From Candidatus Desantisbacteria bacterium CG1_02_49_89 (lineage in GTDB: Bacteria > Desantisbacteria > UBA1551): a DNA stretch of 9,596 nt. The notes beneath the pieces are model-generated. The model did not search any database, was not told the DNA's origin, and was given only the letters and a program-made list of their open reading frames with translations. A program made the position numbers and the translations under genes. Within the stretch, counting starts at the first letter, position 1, and each line of letters begins with the position of its first letter. This document shows positions 1,863-9,332 of this stretch, in pieces. The stretch spans positions 1 through 9,596 of the forward strand of contig MNUP01000097.1 in NCBI GenBank assembly GCA_001871075.1, written 5' to 3'.

Positions 1863-1942
1863 AGTTTATAAAGTTTACAGAGTTTACAAAGTTAAAACTG
1901 TGATAATCTGTGTCTAATTTTATTTCGTGCTTTCGTGGAAAA
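1863..1942 (+). repeat. Composite short-tandem-repeat cassette, copy 1 (before etfB)
   Basis: Three 9-mers of the type AGTTTACAA (1863-1889) are followed by AGTTAAAAC, then a shared tract holding ATCTGTGTCTAATTTTATT and two 8-mers ending TTTCGTG. It ends about ten bases before the etfB ATG. The same units in the same order recur at 4829-4942 before the V-type E subunit gene. Confidence 0.8.
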
Positions 1943-4055: not shown

Positions 4056-4062
4056 AATATTA

Positions 4063-4226
4063 ATTATGAATGCTGAATTATGAATTATGAATCAACAACA
4101 AGGTATTTTTGAAATTGTCCCAAAGGGATCCCTTCGGGATAACTCAGGGCTTCTCGAAGACCCGCCAATCCTTAAGGTGGGAGCCCTGATTCCTTCATTC
4201 ATAACTCATAACTCATAATTCATAAT
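4063..4226. mobile_element. 164-bp MITE-like element with 30-bp inverted ends made of 7-mers
   Basis: The left end (4063-4092) is four 7-mers of type ATTATGA. The right end (4197-4226) is the opposite-strand version, TCATAAC/TCATAAT. By eye the two 30-base ends match at 26 positions. The interior can fold into a branched structure: ATCCC-TTC-GGGAT (4128-4140), an outer stem TCAGGGCT/AGCCCTGA (4144-4151 with 4182-4189), and inside it CTTC/GAAG (4150-4159) and CCCGCC/GGTGGG (4161-4166 with 4176-4181). It has no coding capacity. No clear target duplication was seen, and the ends are tandem repeats, so it may instead be two STRR arrays that happen to face each other. Confidence 0.5.
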
Positions 4227-4260
4227 TGAACTCAATAAGAAAATTAAGGAGGTTTTAAAA

Positions 4261-4737: not shown

Positions 4738-4743
4738 ACTACA

Positions 4744-4764
4744 GTCATTTGTCATTAGTCATTT
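4744..4764 (+). repeat. Three 7-mer units (GTCATTT type)
   Basis: GTCATTT, GTCATTA and GTCATTT run in tandem just after the ntpK stop codon. The complementary-strand version of the array occurs at 7702-7722. Confidence 0.75.
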
Positions 4765-4783
4765 GTAAAAAGCCAAATATTTC

Positions 4784-4815
4784 TCCGTACTTCCGTCATT
4801 CCGTGTTTCCTTGGT
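4784..4815 (+). repeat. Four 8-mer units (TCCGTnnT type)
   Basis: TCCGTACT, TCCGTCAT, TCCGTGTT and a decayed TCCTTGGT follow one another with an exact 8-base period, between a 7-mer array and a 9-mer array in the same gap. Confidence 0.6.
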
Positions 4816-4828
4816 AGTATTTAAAAGC

Positions 4829-4942
4829 AGTTTGCAAAGTTTATAGAGTTTACATAGTTTGCAAAGTTAAAACCGTGATAATCTGTGTTGATCTGTGTCT
4901 AATTTTATTTCGTGTTTTCGTGATACTTTCGTGTTTTCGTGG
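4829..4942 (+). repeat. Composite short-tandem-repeat cassette, copy 2 (before the V-type E gene)
   Basis: Four 9-mers of type AGTTTGCAA/AGTTTACAT (4829-4864) are followed by AGTTAAAAC and the same ATCTGTG...TTTCGTG tract seen at 1863-1942. Copy 2 is longer through one extra 9-mer, an extra ATCTGTGTTG-like unit and an extra block of TTTCGTG units. It ends some 30 bases before the start codon. Confidence 0.8.
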
Positions 4943-4975
4943 AAATCTGTAATCTGTGGTTGGGAAAGGATGTTT

Positions 4976-5560
4976 ATGGCGATCGAAGCGATTATCCGGA
5001 AAATTTTAGGCGACGCGCGTAAAGAGGCGGATGCAATAAGATCAAAGGCGTCAGGCCAGGCGGAAGGGATACTGGCAGAAGCCAGGGCCAGGGCTGAACT
5101 GCTGAAAGCGGATATTGGCGAGAAGGCAGGCGGGCGCGCGAGGCAGGAAGAGGAAAGAATGAGGATTTCCGCGGTCATAGACGCCAAAAAGCAGGTCCTG
5201 GCGGAAAAACAGAAAGCCATATCTGCCGTGTTCAGCGCGGCGCTTGAAGAGATCAAGGGCATGGACAAAGCAGGATACCAGGATATAATCGGGAAGATGC
5301 TTTCGTCCGCTGACGGAGACGAGGAGGTTATAATACCTTCCTCAGAAAAAAGGATAGATGCCGCGTTCATAGAGAAGATCAATAAAACGTATTTTAAAAA
5401 GAAGGCGGGCTTTCGCCTGTCGGTCGAAAAGAGGGAAATGCCGGGTGGCGGTTTCATACTGAAGAAAGAGCGCGTGGAGAAGAATAATTCGTTCGCCGTT
5501 ATCCTGAATTCGCTGAGGCCGGTGATCGAAAGGCAGCTGGCGGAAATGTTATTTAAATAA
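4976..5560 (+). CDS. ntpE: V-type ATP synthase/ATPase subunit E (peripheral stalk)
   Basis: This 194-residue soluble protein matches the usual length and layout of the E subunit. A long charged, alanine-rich N-terminal helix (about residues 1-90, coiled-coil-like, rich in A/E/K/R) is followed by a compact C-terminal domain containing GGGFILKKERVEKNNSFAVILNSLRPVIERQLAEMLF. The C-terminal part (a Gly-Gly segment, then N-N-S-F and a final helix) is typical of vacuolar/archaeal-type E. It would pair with a G/H-type subunit as a peripheral stalk holding the catalytic head; no such partner is in the window. The frame runs upstream, and ATG codons at 4970 and 4976 are both possible. AAAGGA at 4965-4970 sits five bases before 4976, which decides the start. 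The 238-bp gap from ntpK is full of repeats. Confidence 0.85.
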   Translation: MAIEAIIRKILGDARKEADAIRSKASGQAEGILAEARARAELLKADIGEKAGGRARQEEERMRISAVIDAKKQVLAEKQKAISAVFSAALEEIKGMDKAGYQDIIGKMLSSADGDEEVIIPSSEKRIDAAFIEKINKTYFKKKAGFRLSVEKREMPGGGFILKKERVEKNNSFAVILNSLRPVIERQLAEMLFK

Positions 5561-5662: not shown

Positions 5663-6640
5663 ATGTCAAACACCAAGGAATTATTTTCTGAGATCGAAAA
5701 GGGCGCAATAAGGCCCTTTTATATTTTTGCCGGAGTGGAAGAATACCTGAAGGAAGAAGCGGTTGAAAAGATAAAAAAGAAGCTGATAGATCCTTCCCAG
5801 GAAGCCTTCAATTATTACGTCAAACAGGGCGACGAAGTATTTTCTTCGGGCATCAGTTCCCTGCTTGGCGCCTGCCAGACCGTCCCTTTTTTCAGCCAGA
5901 AAAAACTGATCGTCGTGAAAAATGCGGAAGCGGCGTGCAAATTAAAAGATATCGCCGAATACGCCCGGGACCCGGTTCCCAGCACCTGCCTTATCCTTAC
6001 GGTCCTGAAGACCGAAACCGCCCTGAAAAAATACGAGGTTATGTTCTATAGTCCCTTTGTCCCTGAAGCCAAAGCCTGGATCCGGAAAAGGGCCGCGGAA
6101 GAGGGCAAAAAAATGACGGAACCGGCTGTTAACGCCCTGCTGGAAAGGGCGGGCACCGGCCTGGGCCTGCTGTCAAAAGAGATAGAGAAGCTCGCGTTGT
6201 TTTCAGGCAGGAAGGAAAGCATAGAAGAAGAGGATGTCAGGGCGGTGATCTCAAGCAGGGAAGCGCCTGACGTATGGAACCTGGTGGATTGCGTGGCTGA
6301 AAGAAGAAAAGACGAGGCTCTGAGATCCGCGGGGATCCTTATCAGGGAAGGAATATCGCCCGGCTACCTGATCGCTATGATGGCAAGGCAGTTCAGGATG
6401 ATAATGATCGCTAAGCAGCTTATAGAGAAAAAACGTTCCAGCGCTGAGATAGGAGCCGCGATCGGTTCTAGATCGCCGAGGCAGACGGGAAAGGTTATGG
6501 AGCAGGGAAGGAAATTCTCGCAGAAGGAACTGGAGGATAACCTGAACCGGCTCCTTGATACCGAATTCAACATCAAGTCCGGCAGGATCTCAGAGGATCT
6601 TGCTCTTGAAATATTGGTAAGCAAGTTATGCAGCGCGTAG
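5663..6640 (+). CDS. holA: DNA polymerase III subunit delta
   Basis: This is the delta subunit of the clamp loader, which opens the beta sliding clamp for loading on DNA in the cytoplasm. From the chosen start it is 325 residues, normal for HolA/YqeN. The N-terminal RPFYIFAGVEEYLKEEAVEKI matches the family opening. It is followed by a central AAA+-like region (VPFFSQKKLIVVKN, then LLERAGTGLGLLSKEIEKLALF) and the C-terminal helical collar domain (DVWNLVDCVAERRKDEALR..., ending LDTEFNIKSGRISEDLALEILVSKL). An in-frame ATG at 5645 would add six residues. Neither ATG has a visible Shine-Dalgarno; 5663 fits the family N-terminus better. The gene is convergent with rpsT, as in Bacillus (yqeN-rpsT). 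Its TAG stop is part of a hairpin repeat. Confidence 0.92.
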   Translation: MSNTKELFSEIEKGAIRPFYIFAGVEEYLKEEAVEKIKKKLIDPSQEAFNYYVKQGDEVFSSGISSLLGACQTVPFFSQKKLIVVKNAEAACKLKDIAEYARDPVPSTCLILTVLKTETALKKYEVMFYSPFVPEAKAWIRKRAAEEGKKMTEPAVNALLERAGTGLGLLSKEIEKLALFSGRKESIEEEDVRAVISSREAPDVWNLVDCVAERRKDEALRSAGILIREGISPGYLIAMMARQFRMIMIAKQLIEKKRSSAEIGAAIGSRSPRQTGKVMEQGRKFSQKELEDNLNRLLDTEFNIKSGRISEDLALEILVSKLCSA

Positions 6641-6658
6641 GGGCGGGCTTGCCCGCCC
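6637..6658. repeat. GTAGGGGC hairpin containing the holA stop codon
   Basis: GTAG (holding the holA TAG) is followed by GGGCGGGC (6641-6648), loop TT, and GCCCGCCC (6651-6658): a perfect 8-bp GC stem. It could help end transcription, but only two Ts follow. The right half plus TTGTAGCGGTC recurs at 7462-7481. Confidence 0.75.
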
Positions 6659-6667
6659 TTGTAGCGG

Positions 6668-7701: not shown

Positions 7702-7722
7702 AATGACAAATGACTAATGACT
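7702..7722 (-). repeat. Three 7-mer units (AATGACA/AATGACT)
   Basis: AATGACA, AATGACT and AATGACT run in tandem. Read on the other strand this is the same array as at 4744-4764. Confidence 0.7.
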
Positions 7723-7887
7723 AATTGACAGCAGACGAGCCCGGGGGATTTTTGTTTTTAAGTAAAAGAATAGAAGAATTAGGCTATTGCTGTCCGAAGA
7801 TCCTGATACATGCCAATTGGGATCCGCGTTTCTTTGCCTTAGTGTCCTCAAGTTAAGATTTAATTCTCTATCAGTAGGCGGCGAAAC

Positions 7888-7941: not shown

Positions 7942-8268
7942 TTGGAAACCATAGAAAACAAGAAAGAACGGATAAAGCTGACACCGGAACAGTTGTTCAA
8001 TGTCTACATGGAATGCATTGCCCCGGGCGCTCCGGTAAAGATGATCCTGCAGCGCAACGGCCTTGTCCCATGGGACCTGGTAGCCATACGCAAAAAGGTC
8101 AAGGCGGCGGCCATAGAAGCGTTGTCCAGGAAGGGCAAGCCCGGGCGCAAACAGCAGGTCATACCCGTAGAACAGTACCAAAGAGTCGCAAGACAGCTGG
8201 AAGAAACAAAAGACGCCCTTGCCGCAGTGGGCCACGAGCTGTCCTTGTTAAAAAAAAGAACGGATTAG
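7942..8268 (+). CDS. IS3-like transposase OrfA (helix-turn-helix protein)
   Basis: This 108-residue protein starts with TTG at 7942. The start is supported by GGAGG at 7931-7935, six bases upstream, and the absence of a nearby ATG. Residues about 15-60 (LTPEQLFNVYMECIA... LQRNGLVPWDLVAIRKKV) look like a DNA-binding helical domain. Residues about 75-103 (VEQYQRVARQLEETKDALAAVGHELSLLKK) look like the leucine-zipper-type coiled coil used by IS3 OrfA for multimerisation. OrfA would bind the IS ends and limit transposition. A run of eight A residues near its end is the frameshift site into orfB. Confidence 0.8.
   Translation: METIENKKERIKLTPEQLFNVYMECIAPGAPVKMILQRNGLVPWDLVAIRKKVKAAAIEALSRKGKPGRKQQVIPVEQYQRVARQLEETKDALAAVGHELSLLKKRTD
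8250..8258 (+). promoter_or_regulatory. Programmed -1 ribosomal frameshift site
   Basis: A slippery heptamer A-AAA-AAA (8250-8256) lies in the correct phase of orfA and is followed by AG. Slipping one base back moves ribosomes from orfA into orfB, which has no start codon of its own nearby. The fusion would be 463 residues (105 from OrfA and 358 from OrfB). No strong downstream stimulatory stem was identified by eye. Confidence 0.75.
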
Positions 8269-9332
8269 GGCTTTTAGGCGCGCTTAAAGGACATTTCAAG
8301 AAAGAGACAAGGACAGCCGTAGTCGAAAGCATCAAAGAAGCTGTTTCCCAGGGATTAACCCAGAAACGAGCCTGCCGGATATTCGGGATTGAGCCGAGGA
8401 AACTGCGCAGATGGGCTAATCCGAAGCCGCTGGTAAAGCGTATTGCATGGAACAGGATCCTTGCCCATGAGCGGGAAGCCATTGTCCGGACTGCCACAGA
8501 AGAAAGGTTCTGGGACAAACCCGTAAGCCATATCTTCGTCCACGGCCATGAGTCAGGGAGGTTCTTTGCCTCTCTTTCAACTGTGTACAAGGTCCTGAAA
8601 AGTGAAAGACTGCTGCGCCCAATCAGGAGGCGCAAGAGAAACGGCTCCTATGTTTCCGCTCATTCTCTTCTGGATCAGGGGTTTTCGCTTCTTTGCTACG
8701 ATGCTACGTGCTTTGTCACTGAAACAGGGATTGCCGTGTGGGCTATACCGGTAATGATTCTGCCTTGCCGCTACCTGCTTCACATAGGATATTCCCTGAC
8801 AGGTGTCACTTCTTCTGACCTGGTAAGGGCTGTAACTGAGGCGCTGGCTCTTATGCCGCCTTCGCTGGAATTAAACCTGGTGGCTCACTCTGACAGAGGC
8901 TCTGCGATGAAAGCAGCTTACACCAGGATTACTGTTAAAGACCTGCTTGGCGCTCTGATACACTACGGCAGGCCTCATACCCCTGACGACGAAGGCTGGA
9001 TAGAGGCGTTTATCAAAACGCTTAAGTACCACAGGGAAGCCCCTGTTTCCTTTAAGATCGTAGATGACGTAGTCAGCTGGCTTGCGCGCTTCCCTGACCT
9101 TTACAATAATGACCCCCACAGCTCTCTAAAGTATGTTACTCCGCTTCAGGCTCTGTCGGGTCAACAGGAGGTGATACTAAATCAAAGAAAACAGAATCTT
9201 GTGTCTGCCCGGAAGCGCCGTTATGCCTTCTGGCAGAAGAACCAGCCTTCTTCCTTCATCGGAAAAGAGGCGGTTGTACCTGCTTCTCTTACAGAGCCTC
9301 CGTCGGCAGAAGTAGCTATGCAACTGGTTTGA
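8256..9332 (+). CDS. IS3-like transposase OrfB (DDE catalytic domain, made as an OrfAB fusion)
   Basis: Counting from the frameshift point, OrfB is 358 residues. An N-terminal helical region includes a helix-turn-helix-like segment (SQGLTQKRACRIFGIEPRKLRRWA). It is followed by the RNase H-fold integrase core. Candidate catalytic residues are Asp149 (CYDATCF), Asp213 (AHSDRGS) and Glu250 (EGWIEAFIKTLKYHRE), with 36 residues between the last two, close to the family's 35. YNNDPHSSLKYVTPLQAL near the end is the usual C-terminal integrase motif. The open frame extends back to 8013, but that part overlaps orfA and is not protein-like. All catalytic residues are present and no internal stop was seen, so the element may be active. 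T-ending codons look more frequent than in the host genes. Confidence 0.85.
   Translation, partial: KNGLGLLGALKGHFKKETRTAVVESIKEAVSQGLTQKRACRIFGIEPRKLRRWANPKPLVKRIAWNRILAHEREAIVRTATEERFWDKPVSHIFVHGHESGRFFASLSTVYKVLKSERLLRPIRRRKRNGSYVSAHSLLDQGFSLLCYDATCFVTETGIAVWAIPVMILPCRYLLHIGYSLTGVTSSDLVRAVTEALALMPPSLELNLVAHSDRGSAMKAAYTRITVKDLLGALIHYGRPHTPDDEGWIEAFIKTLKYHREAPVSFKIVDDVVSWLARFPDLYNNDPHSSLKYVTPLQALSGQQEVILNQRKQNLVSARKRRYAFWQKNQPSSFIGKEAVVPASLTEPPSAEVAMQLV

Follow-up and report, generated by a model that had tools for sequence, protein, structure and literature searches.

Ordered modules of imperfect 7- to 10-base repeats in intergenic gaps of a Candidatus Desantisbacteria genome

Repeat modules of the window

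The window (the whole stretch of 9,596 nucleotides that was analysed) is an entire contig; the draft genome to which it belongs measures 2.48 Mb and is 93.5% complete. By Pfam, its genes encode the end of a beta-ketoacyl synthase, an acyl-CoA dehydrogenase, EtfB, EtfA with ferredoxin domains, V-ATPase subunits K and E, HolA, ribosomal protein S20 and an integrase-core transposase. At 7942-9332, an overlapping frame pair (108 aa and the integrase-core ORF) is transposase-like, as in IS3-type elements.

The gap between the V-ATPase genes ntpK and ntpE is, on direct reading of the letters, made of five short repeat modules set end to end (Table 1): 7-mers at 4744-4764 (GTCATTT/GTCATTA/GTCATTT), 8-mers at 4784-4815 (TCCGTACT/TCCGTCAT/TCCGTGTT/TCCTTGGT), 9-mers at 4829-4864 (AGTTTGCAA/AGTTTATAG/AGTTTACAT/AGTTTGCAA), a 10-mer module, and TTTCGTG units that span 4908-4942. 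TRF recovers the 7-mer, 9-mer and TTTCGTG arrays of this gap and, elsewhere in the window, arrays at 1863-1893, 4058-4092, 4197-4227 and 7702-7730. The 7-, 8- and 9-mer arrays of the gap, to which a first, sequence-only reading had drawn attention, are thus present where it placed them (by direct reading, and by TRF for the 7- and 9-mers), as are the similar arrays it noted near 1863, 4063, 4199 and 7702; its four 8-mers are correctly located and form a degenerate array. That reading also took the units to be mutually unrelated, which does not hold for all of them: the 8-mer, 10-mer and TTTCGTG modules have a common YYGTG core. One layout occurs in two copies in the window, at 1863-1938 and at 4829-4942. 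Folded RNA was rejected as the identity of the gap, which folds no better than its shuffles (z +1.42), and an Rfam scan of the window matched no family.

Table 1. Repeat features of the window, with positions counted from its first letter.
Feature	Position	Strand	Remarks
ntpK-ntpE gap	4738..4969	+	multi-module copy of the dispersed composite
7-mer module GTCATTT/A	4744..4766	+	3 1/3 units; module counted 30 times in fetched gaps
Linker TAAAAAGCCAAATATTT	4766..4782	+	conserved elsewhere in the genome between 7-mer and 8-mer modules
Degenerate 8-mer module (TCCGTNNT)	4784..4815	+	appears to occupy the slot filled elsewhere by CTCTGTGTCTCCGTGCCTCTGTGG
9-mer module AGTTTNNAN	4829..4868	+	four units, every neighbour pair different
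10-mer module CCGTGATAATCTGTGTTGATCTGTG	4873..4897	+	ATCTGTG units at 4881-4897
TCTAATTTTA linker and 8-mer module TTTCGTG	4898..4942	+	four units, GTGG end; exact linker at 6 places
Shorter composite copy before etfB	1863..1938	+	9-mer, ATCTGTG, TCTAATTTTA and TTTCGTG modules
7-mer module TATGAAT	4058..4092	+	five units, etfA-ntpK gap
Dispersed palindrome TCCCAAAGGGATCCCTTCGGGA	4118..4139	.	strand unassigned; between two 7-mer arrays
7-mer module ATTCATA/ACTCATA	4197..4227	+	direct reading, TRF
7-mer module GTCATTA/T	7702..7730	-	direct reading, TRF

Abundance, order and unit variation in the genome

The genome was surveyed in a sample of 100 contigs (1.35 Mb, with 8,000 masked N), in which "coding" and "intergenic" are approximate terms, the genes coming from a simple hexamer-trained caller. 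In 171 kb of intergenic sequence, TRF at a score of at least 36 finds 276, 103, 91 and 97 arrays of periods 7, 8, 9 and 10, against 1, 4, 3 and 7 in five pooled order-3 Markov shuffles; the heptamer is the commonest array period in the genome. Period 6 gives six intergenic arrays and periods 1-5 none; periods 14, 16, 18, 21 and 23 are likewise detected, the first four of these being multiples. The density of arrays of periods 7-10 is 44-144 per 100 kb in non-coding versus 1.2-8.7 in coding sequence, and an array of this kind is present in 409 of the 633 gaps of at least 80 bp, with two or more periods combined in 148 gaps. Chance is thus far exceeded, neighbouring arrays of different period are frequent, and the restriction to gaps proposed in the sequence-only reading stands as a strong bias. 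The restriction may come mostly from the loss of harmful, gene-breaking insertions.

Relative to the genes, array strand is near random (38:28 for the 9-mer, 43:28 for the 10-mer and 20:21 for the octamer), and a fixed orientation with respect to genes was dropped on these ratios. Avoidance of convergent or divergent gaps by the 9-mer arrays was dropped as well, since nearly all gaps are co-directional. By our own gene calls on the fetched contigs, 841 of 866 gaps are ++ or -- and only 25 are strand switches; the one-strand gene runs are very long, for which short contigs and the simple caller could partly account.

The same units and linkers recur at distant gaps, on one strand and in one order. 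Tripled AGTTTNNAN has 138 matches genome-wide (0 for the reversed control), and none of the 72 AGTTTNNAN arrays of at least two units in the fetched part is coding. The flanks of these arrays give the layout: a 7-/8-mer array, the 9-mer array, AGT, a 10-mer array of AATCCGTG/AATTCGTG/AATCTGTG type with GTGG at its end, and CTCTGTG and/or TTTCGTG. The same-strand order runs from the 7/8-mers through AGTTTNNAN, AATCCGTG and CTCTGTG to TTTCGTG, with counts for and against of 14:2 for 9-mer before 10-mer, 6:0 for 10-mer before CTCTGTG, 4:0 for CTCTGTG before TTTCGTG, 4:0 for 9-mer before TTTCGTG and 4:0 for the CGTGTCAA 8-mer before the 9-mer. The linker TCTAATTTTATTTCGTG is exact at six places. 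Between GGCAG and TAAAAGCCAAATATT, which is followed by octamers, one slot takes either a GTCATTT or a TTGTCAG array, and the window's TCCGTNNT and CTCTGTGTCTCCGTGCCTCTGTGG would be homologous in slot in the same manner. With the window gap as query, nhmmer returns 51 hits (E<1e-3) from the 1.35 Mb of fetched contigs; the composite 9-mer and 10-mer pattern had no match in other genomes. A further dispersed repeat, of GACCCAGCTCTGGTTCGTAGGCCCC type, is seen at 580-620 of the window and in flanks at L093, L018 and L085, and in some cases stands where a CCGTG array would have its latter half (aatccgtgccgtagggtcatc...).

The sequence-only reading had the arrays side by side; they do adjoin, but as parts of a repeated, ordered composite. 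A mechanism that adds arrays to each gap independently finds no support in the unit sequences, linkers, strand and order common to distant gaps, nor in the dissimilarity of adjacent units, the cross-phylum module and the whole-block gain and loss in related species described below.

Unit order was permuted within arrays (5000 permutations) for strict-register arrays of at least three units in seven families. Identical adjacent units number 94, against 128.7 when permuted, and 0 of the 5000 permutations is as low; identical next-but-one units number 96 against 81.5 (p 0.008). The dissimilarity is carried by four families (A9, D7, H7 and K7), and the two large families B10 and G8 give no signal. 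A raw TRF test of within-array similarity points in the opposite direction for periods 8-10 and was set aside for the strict-register arrays because indels shift the register; a neighbour test on the octamer module was excluded from the evidence because it is biased, its last unit ending in G. In AGTTTNNAN, unit variation is concentrated at positions 7 and 9, and at position 6, on which the search set no constraint, 91% of units have A.

Slippage is the usual explanation for short tandem arrays between genes, which are then given no further attention. Local growth of 7-10 base units through slippage during replication, the origin proposed for long simple sequence repeats, would fit the heptamer as commonest period, as in an earlier survey, and one Roseateles ortholog that has four units versus three (see below). 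Slippage leaves identical neighbours, as in STRRs and long simple sequence repeats; the present neighbours are less alike than permuted ones, and viral contigs that match the same 9-mer pattern have, by contrast, mostly identical units. The present arrays were therefore built from variant units or filtered for stability, and we infer that stability accounts for the dissimilar neighbours. As the same units and linkers also lie at many unlinked gaps, we regard local growth as very improbable.

The octamer module across phyla

The octamer module CTCYGTGNCTCYGTGNCTCYGTGG is present in 55 copies in the window genome and in 3-222 copies in each of 22 genomes reached from other loci (reversed control 0 in all); there is none in the second genome from the window's order. 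A near-identical TCTCYGTG... form matches at least 117 stretches of species genomes, where we estimate about 0.06 matches by chance for uniform base composition. From the genome titles, several of which are of isolates, the module ranges over at least 12 named phyla, which we take to be Planctomycetota, Pseudomonadota, Acidobacteriota, Nitrospirota, Chloroflexota, Bacteroidota, Chlamydiota, Spirochaetota (Leptospiraceae), Verrucomicrobiota, Desulfobacterota (Geobacteraceae), Armatimonadota (Abditibacteriaceae) and FCPU426. The dominant variant and the layout differ between genomes: outward-facing octamer pairs with inner 7-mer arms in Abditibacteriaceae, an octamer array in terminal repeats of ~42 bp in Parachlamydiaceae, and in most cases lone arrays within composites, not hairpins, in the window genome. 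One Parachlamydiaceae genome (G015, L367-L376) has dozens of copies of MITE-like elements of ~115-480 bp, with ~42 bp terminal repeats composed of the octamer array and GCACAGAGAGC, and with nested inner repeats.

Roseateles carries the module as hairpins of 52-108 bp, with arms of octamers and a conserved GTGG end; these form strong DNA folds. Among 20 species of the genus of Roseateles caseinilyticus, 8 have 0 copies and the others 4-222. At the first of three gaps compared, the two genes overlap in eight congeners (AAATCATGA), three genomes (G007, G035 and G031) carry hairpins, differing in variant, in their spacers, the copies of G027 and G009 have one arm only, and a palindrome of another kind lies there in G037 and G040. 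The second gap measures 7-36 bp in nine species and 142-173 bp, with a hairpin, in five, the left arm having four units in one of the five and three in the other four. At the third, four species have 2-19 bp, two have a hairpin and the rest other, often palindromic, sequence. For two gaps, the empty form, seen in 8-9 congeners, is 2-36 bp and the form with the hairpin, seen in 3-5 species, about 100-170 bp; the occupied gaps differ in more than the hairpin. The octamer hairpins of Roseateles thus come and go as whole blocks, and unit number can change too. Neither a clear target-site duplication nor a sharp common boundary was found in the compared gaps, the boundaries of which have strongly diverged. 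A search for the hairpin on plasmids gave no match, with a repeat filter that may have masked it. Near octamer hairpins, Roseateles L407 has matches to tRNA-Sec, SECIS_3 and 5_ureB_sRNA (5223-5521, 8222-8313 and 16812-16870).

For the window itself, the comparison set includes one other genome of the phylum, from the same order. Its syntenic gaps are ~68 bp (etfA-ntpK) and ~58 bp (ntpK-ntpE) and hold no arrays, versus 205 and 232 bp in the window; by analogy with Roseateles, the window composite too would be gained and lost as a block. A different repeat family occupies the syntenic etfA-ntpK gap of that genome (L476, 1432-1500), with another hairpin, GGGGTCAGGTCTTGACA...TGTCAAGACCTGACCCC.

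Could the elements be palindromes of REP/BIME type that Y1 transposases (TnpA-REP/RAYT) move? REP/BIME elements, and REPINs with RAYT, are likewise short, intergenic, non-autonomous and present in hundreds of copies (PMC2817692, PMC3733652, PMC3116915), and REP elements share with the Roseateles form the palindrome and a GT(A/G)G end (PMC2817692). The length, GTGG end and strong folding of the Roseateles hairpins point this way, the Abditibacteriaceae octamer elements fold in the same stem-loop fashion, and the window genome has 10 Y1_Tnp matches as well as REP-like GTAGGGGCGGGCTTGCCCGCC sequences. However, every one of the 20 Roseateles genomes has Y1_Tnp, the 8 that lack the hairpin among them, and the best Y1 gene of each has no octamer array closer than ~1.5 kb. 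RAYT was rejected as the mobiliser, Y1 presence being unrelated to hairpin count and octamers being absent beside the best Y1 genes. The elements differ from REP/BIME further in that their arms are tandem octamers, no link to a Y1 transposase was found, the window form is not a hairpin and the window modules are mostly non-palindromic. We consider this origin improbable, if somewhat less so than local slippage. GTAGGGGCGGGCTTGCCCGCC, a GTAG-tagged palindrome resembling published REP elements, lies at 6636-6660 of the window and in many other gaps; the window genome may have an ordinary REP/RAYT system beside its arrays.

Known systems and interpretation

The closest described counterparts are the multicopy sites of Geobacter, four tandem octanucleotides or five heptanucleotides paired on opposite strands, for which regulator binding was proposed and not shown (PMC2700814). 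In G. bemidjiensis, multicopy sequences occur in 12% of intergenic regions, with several together in 31% of these (PMC2996986). Like the present arrays, they are dispersed and partly degenerate 7-/8-mers with several families in one gap; the pairs lie on opposite strands at variable distance, their units are GTTGCTYN and MTYCTGA, they are described from one genus, and their authors read them as regulator sites; an ordered composite of periods 7-10 and empty sites are not reported in the text available (PMC2996986). Outside the window genome, the octamer module shows the Geobacter arrangement of three to five degenerate 7-/8-mers in opposite-strand pairs, whereas the window-genome octamers are mostly unpaired.

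On this model, put forward for the Geobacter sites and for TAACTGA repeats alike, selection would maintain the arrays as clustered targets of a protein that binds DNA or RNA, with gaps recruited into a regulatory network and units varying only where the protein does not read. The concentration of AGTTTNNAN variation at certain positions, the intergenic bias and the published interpretation of paired octanucleotide arrays as global-regulator sites all agree with it. Sites of this kind are harder to reconcile with a strand near random to that of the genes, with whole sites missing at the same genes in related species, and with a range of 0-222 copies within one genus. We hold this explanation to be unlikely, though the strongest of the three rivals.

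The sequence-only reading had likened the arrays to cyanobacterial STRRs, and in kind this is apt: like STRRs and long simple sequence repeats, they repeat a short unit head to tail, mainly between genes and at many loci; the likeness fails in that adjacent units are identical less often than when permuted. Cyanobacterial STRRs and the TAACTGA repeats of Beggiatoaceae are also intergenic heptamers in many dispersed copies, patchy across distant lineages and, as for the present arrays, without a known mechanism; they differ in having a single period and unit, sometimes in long arrays, and the available text does not report linkers or module order (PMC4679880). MITEs resemble the Parachlamydiaceae and Abditibacteriaceae forms in having terminal inverted array repeats around variable insides, and the octamer hairpin is gained and lost as a block between related genomes as MITEs are; no target-site duplication was found in the diverged boundaries of the Roseateles gaps.

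We think it probable that the ntpK-ntpE gap represents one copy of an intergenic repeat that is dispersed, oriented and non-autonomous, spreads as pre-formed blocks and is not grown locally. This view draws on the dispersal, order and strand of its parts, the intergenic bias, the scarcity of identical neighbours, the range of the octamer module across phyla and its whole-block presence or absence in Roseateles. The body of the repeat would be a string of short imperfect tandem modules of periods 7, 8, 9 and 10 with conserved linkers between them; copies would arrive between genes as ready-made blocks, by copying or by movement. Once there, modules would decay, give way to others in their slot and now and then change in unit number, and arrays whose neighbours differ would persist because they slip less. 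The window composite would spread as the octamer hairpin does; since the octamer arrays of the window genome are mostly single and the gap folds no better than its shuffles, its mode of spread may nevertheless differ from that in Roseateles. More tentatively, and in our view with the balance against it, the elements could belong to a bacteria-wide class, in at least 12 phyla, of non-autonomous mobile intergenic elements made of imperfect 7-10 base modules, with common unit sequences, a rule that neighbours differ and dedicated copying machinery that assembles ordered composites.

What is new is a modular, imperfect short-unit intergenic element as a variant of described repeats, with a cross-phylum distribution; the unit sequences, searched as strings, had no match in open-licence literature, where an earlier description under another name is possible. 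The arrays behave as a modular, spreading repeat class, the octamer module filling gaps in unrelated phyla and, within a single genus, ranging from 0 to >200 copies per species. Elements like these are easily overlooked because simple-repeat filters mask them. With Roseateles, Azospirillum and Magnetospirillum, the octamer carriers include cultured bacteria in which the mechanism and any function are testable. The elements, which may affect transcription or mRNA stability, lengthen the gaps within gene runs: those of the window reach 205-232 bp, those of the same-order genome 58-68 bp.
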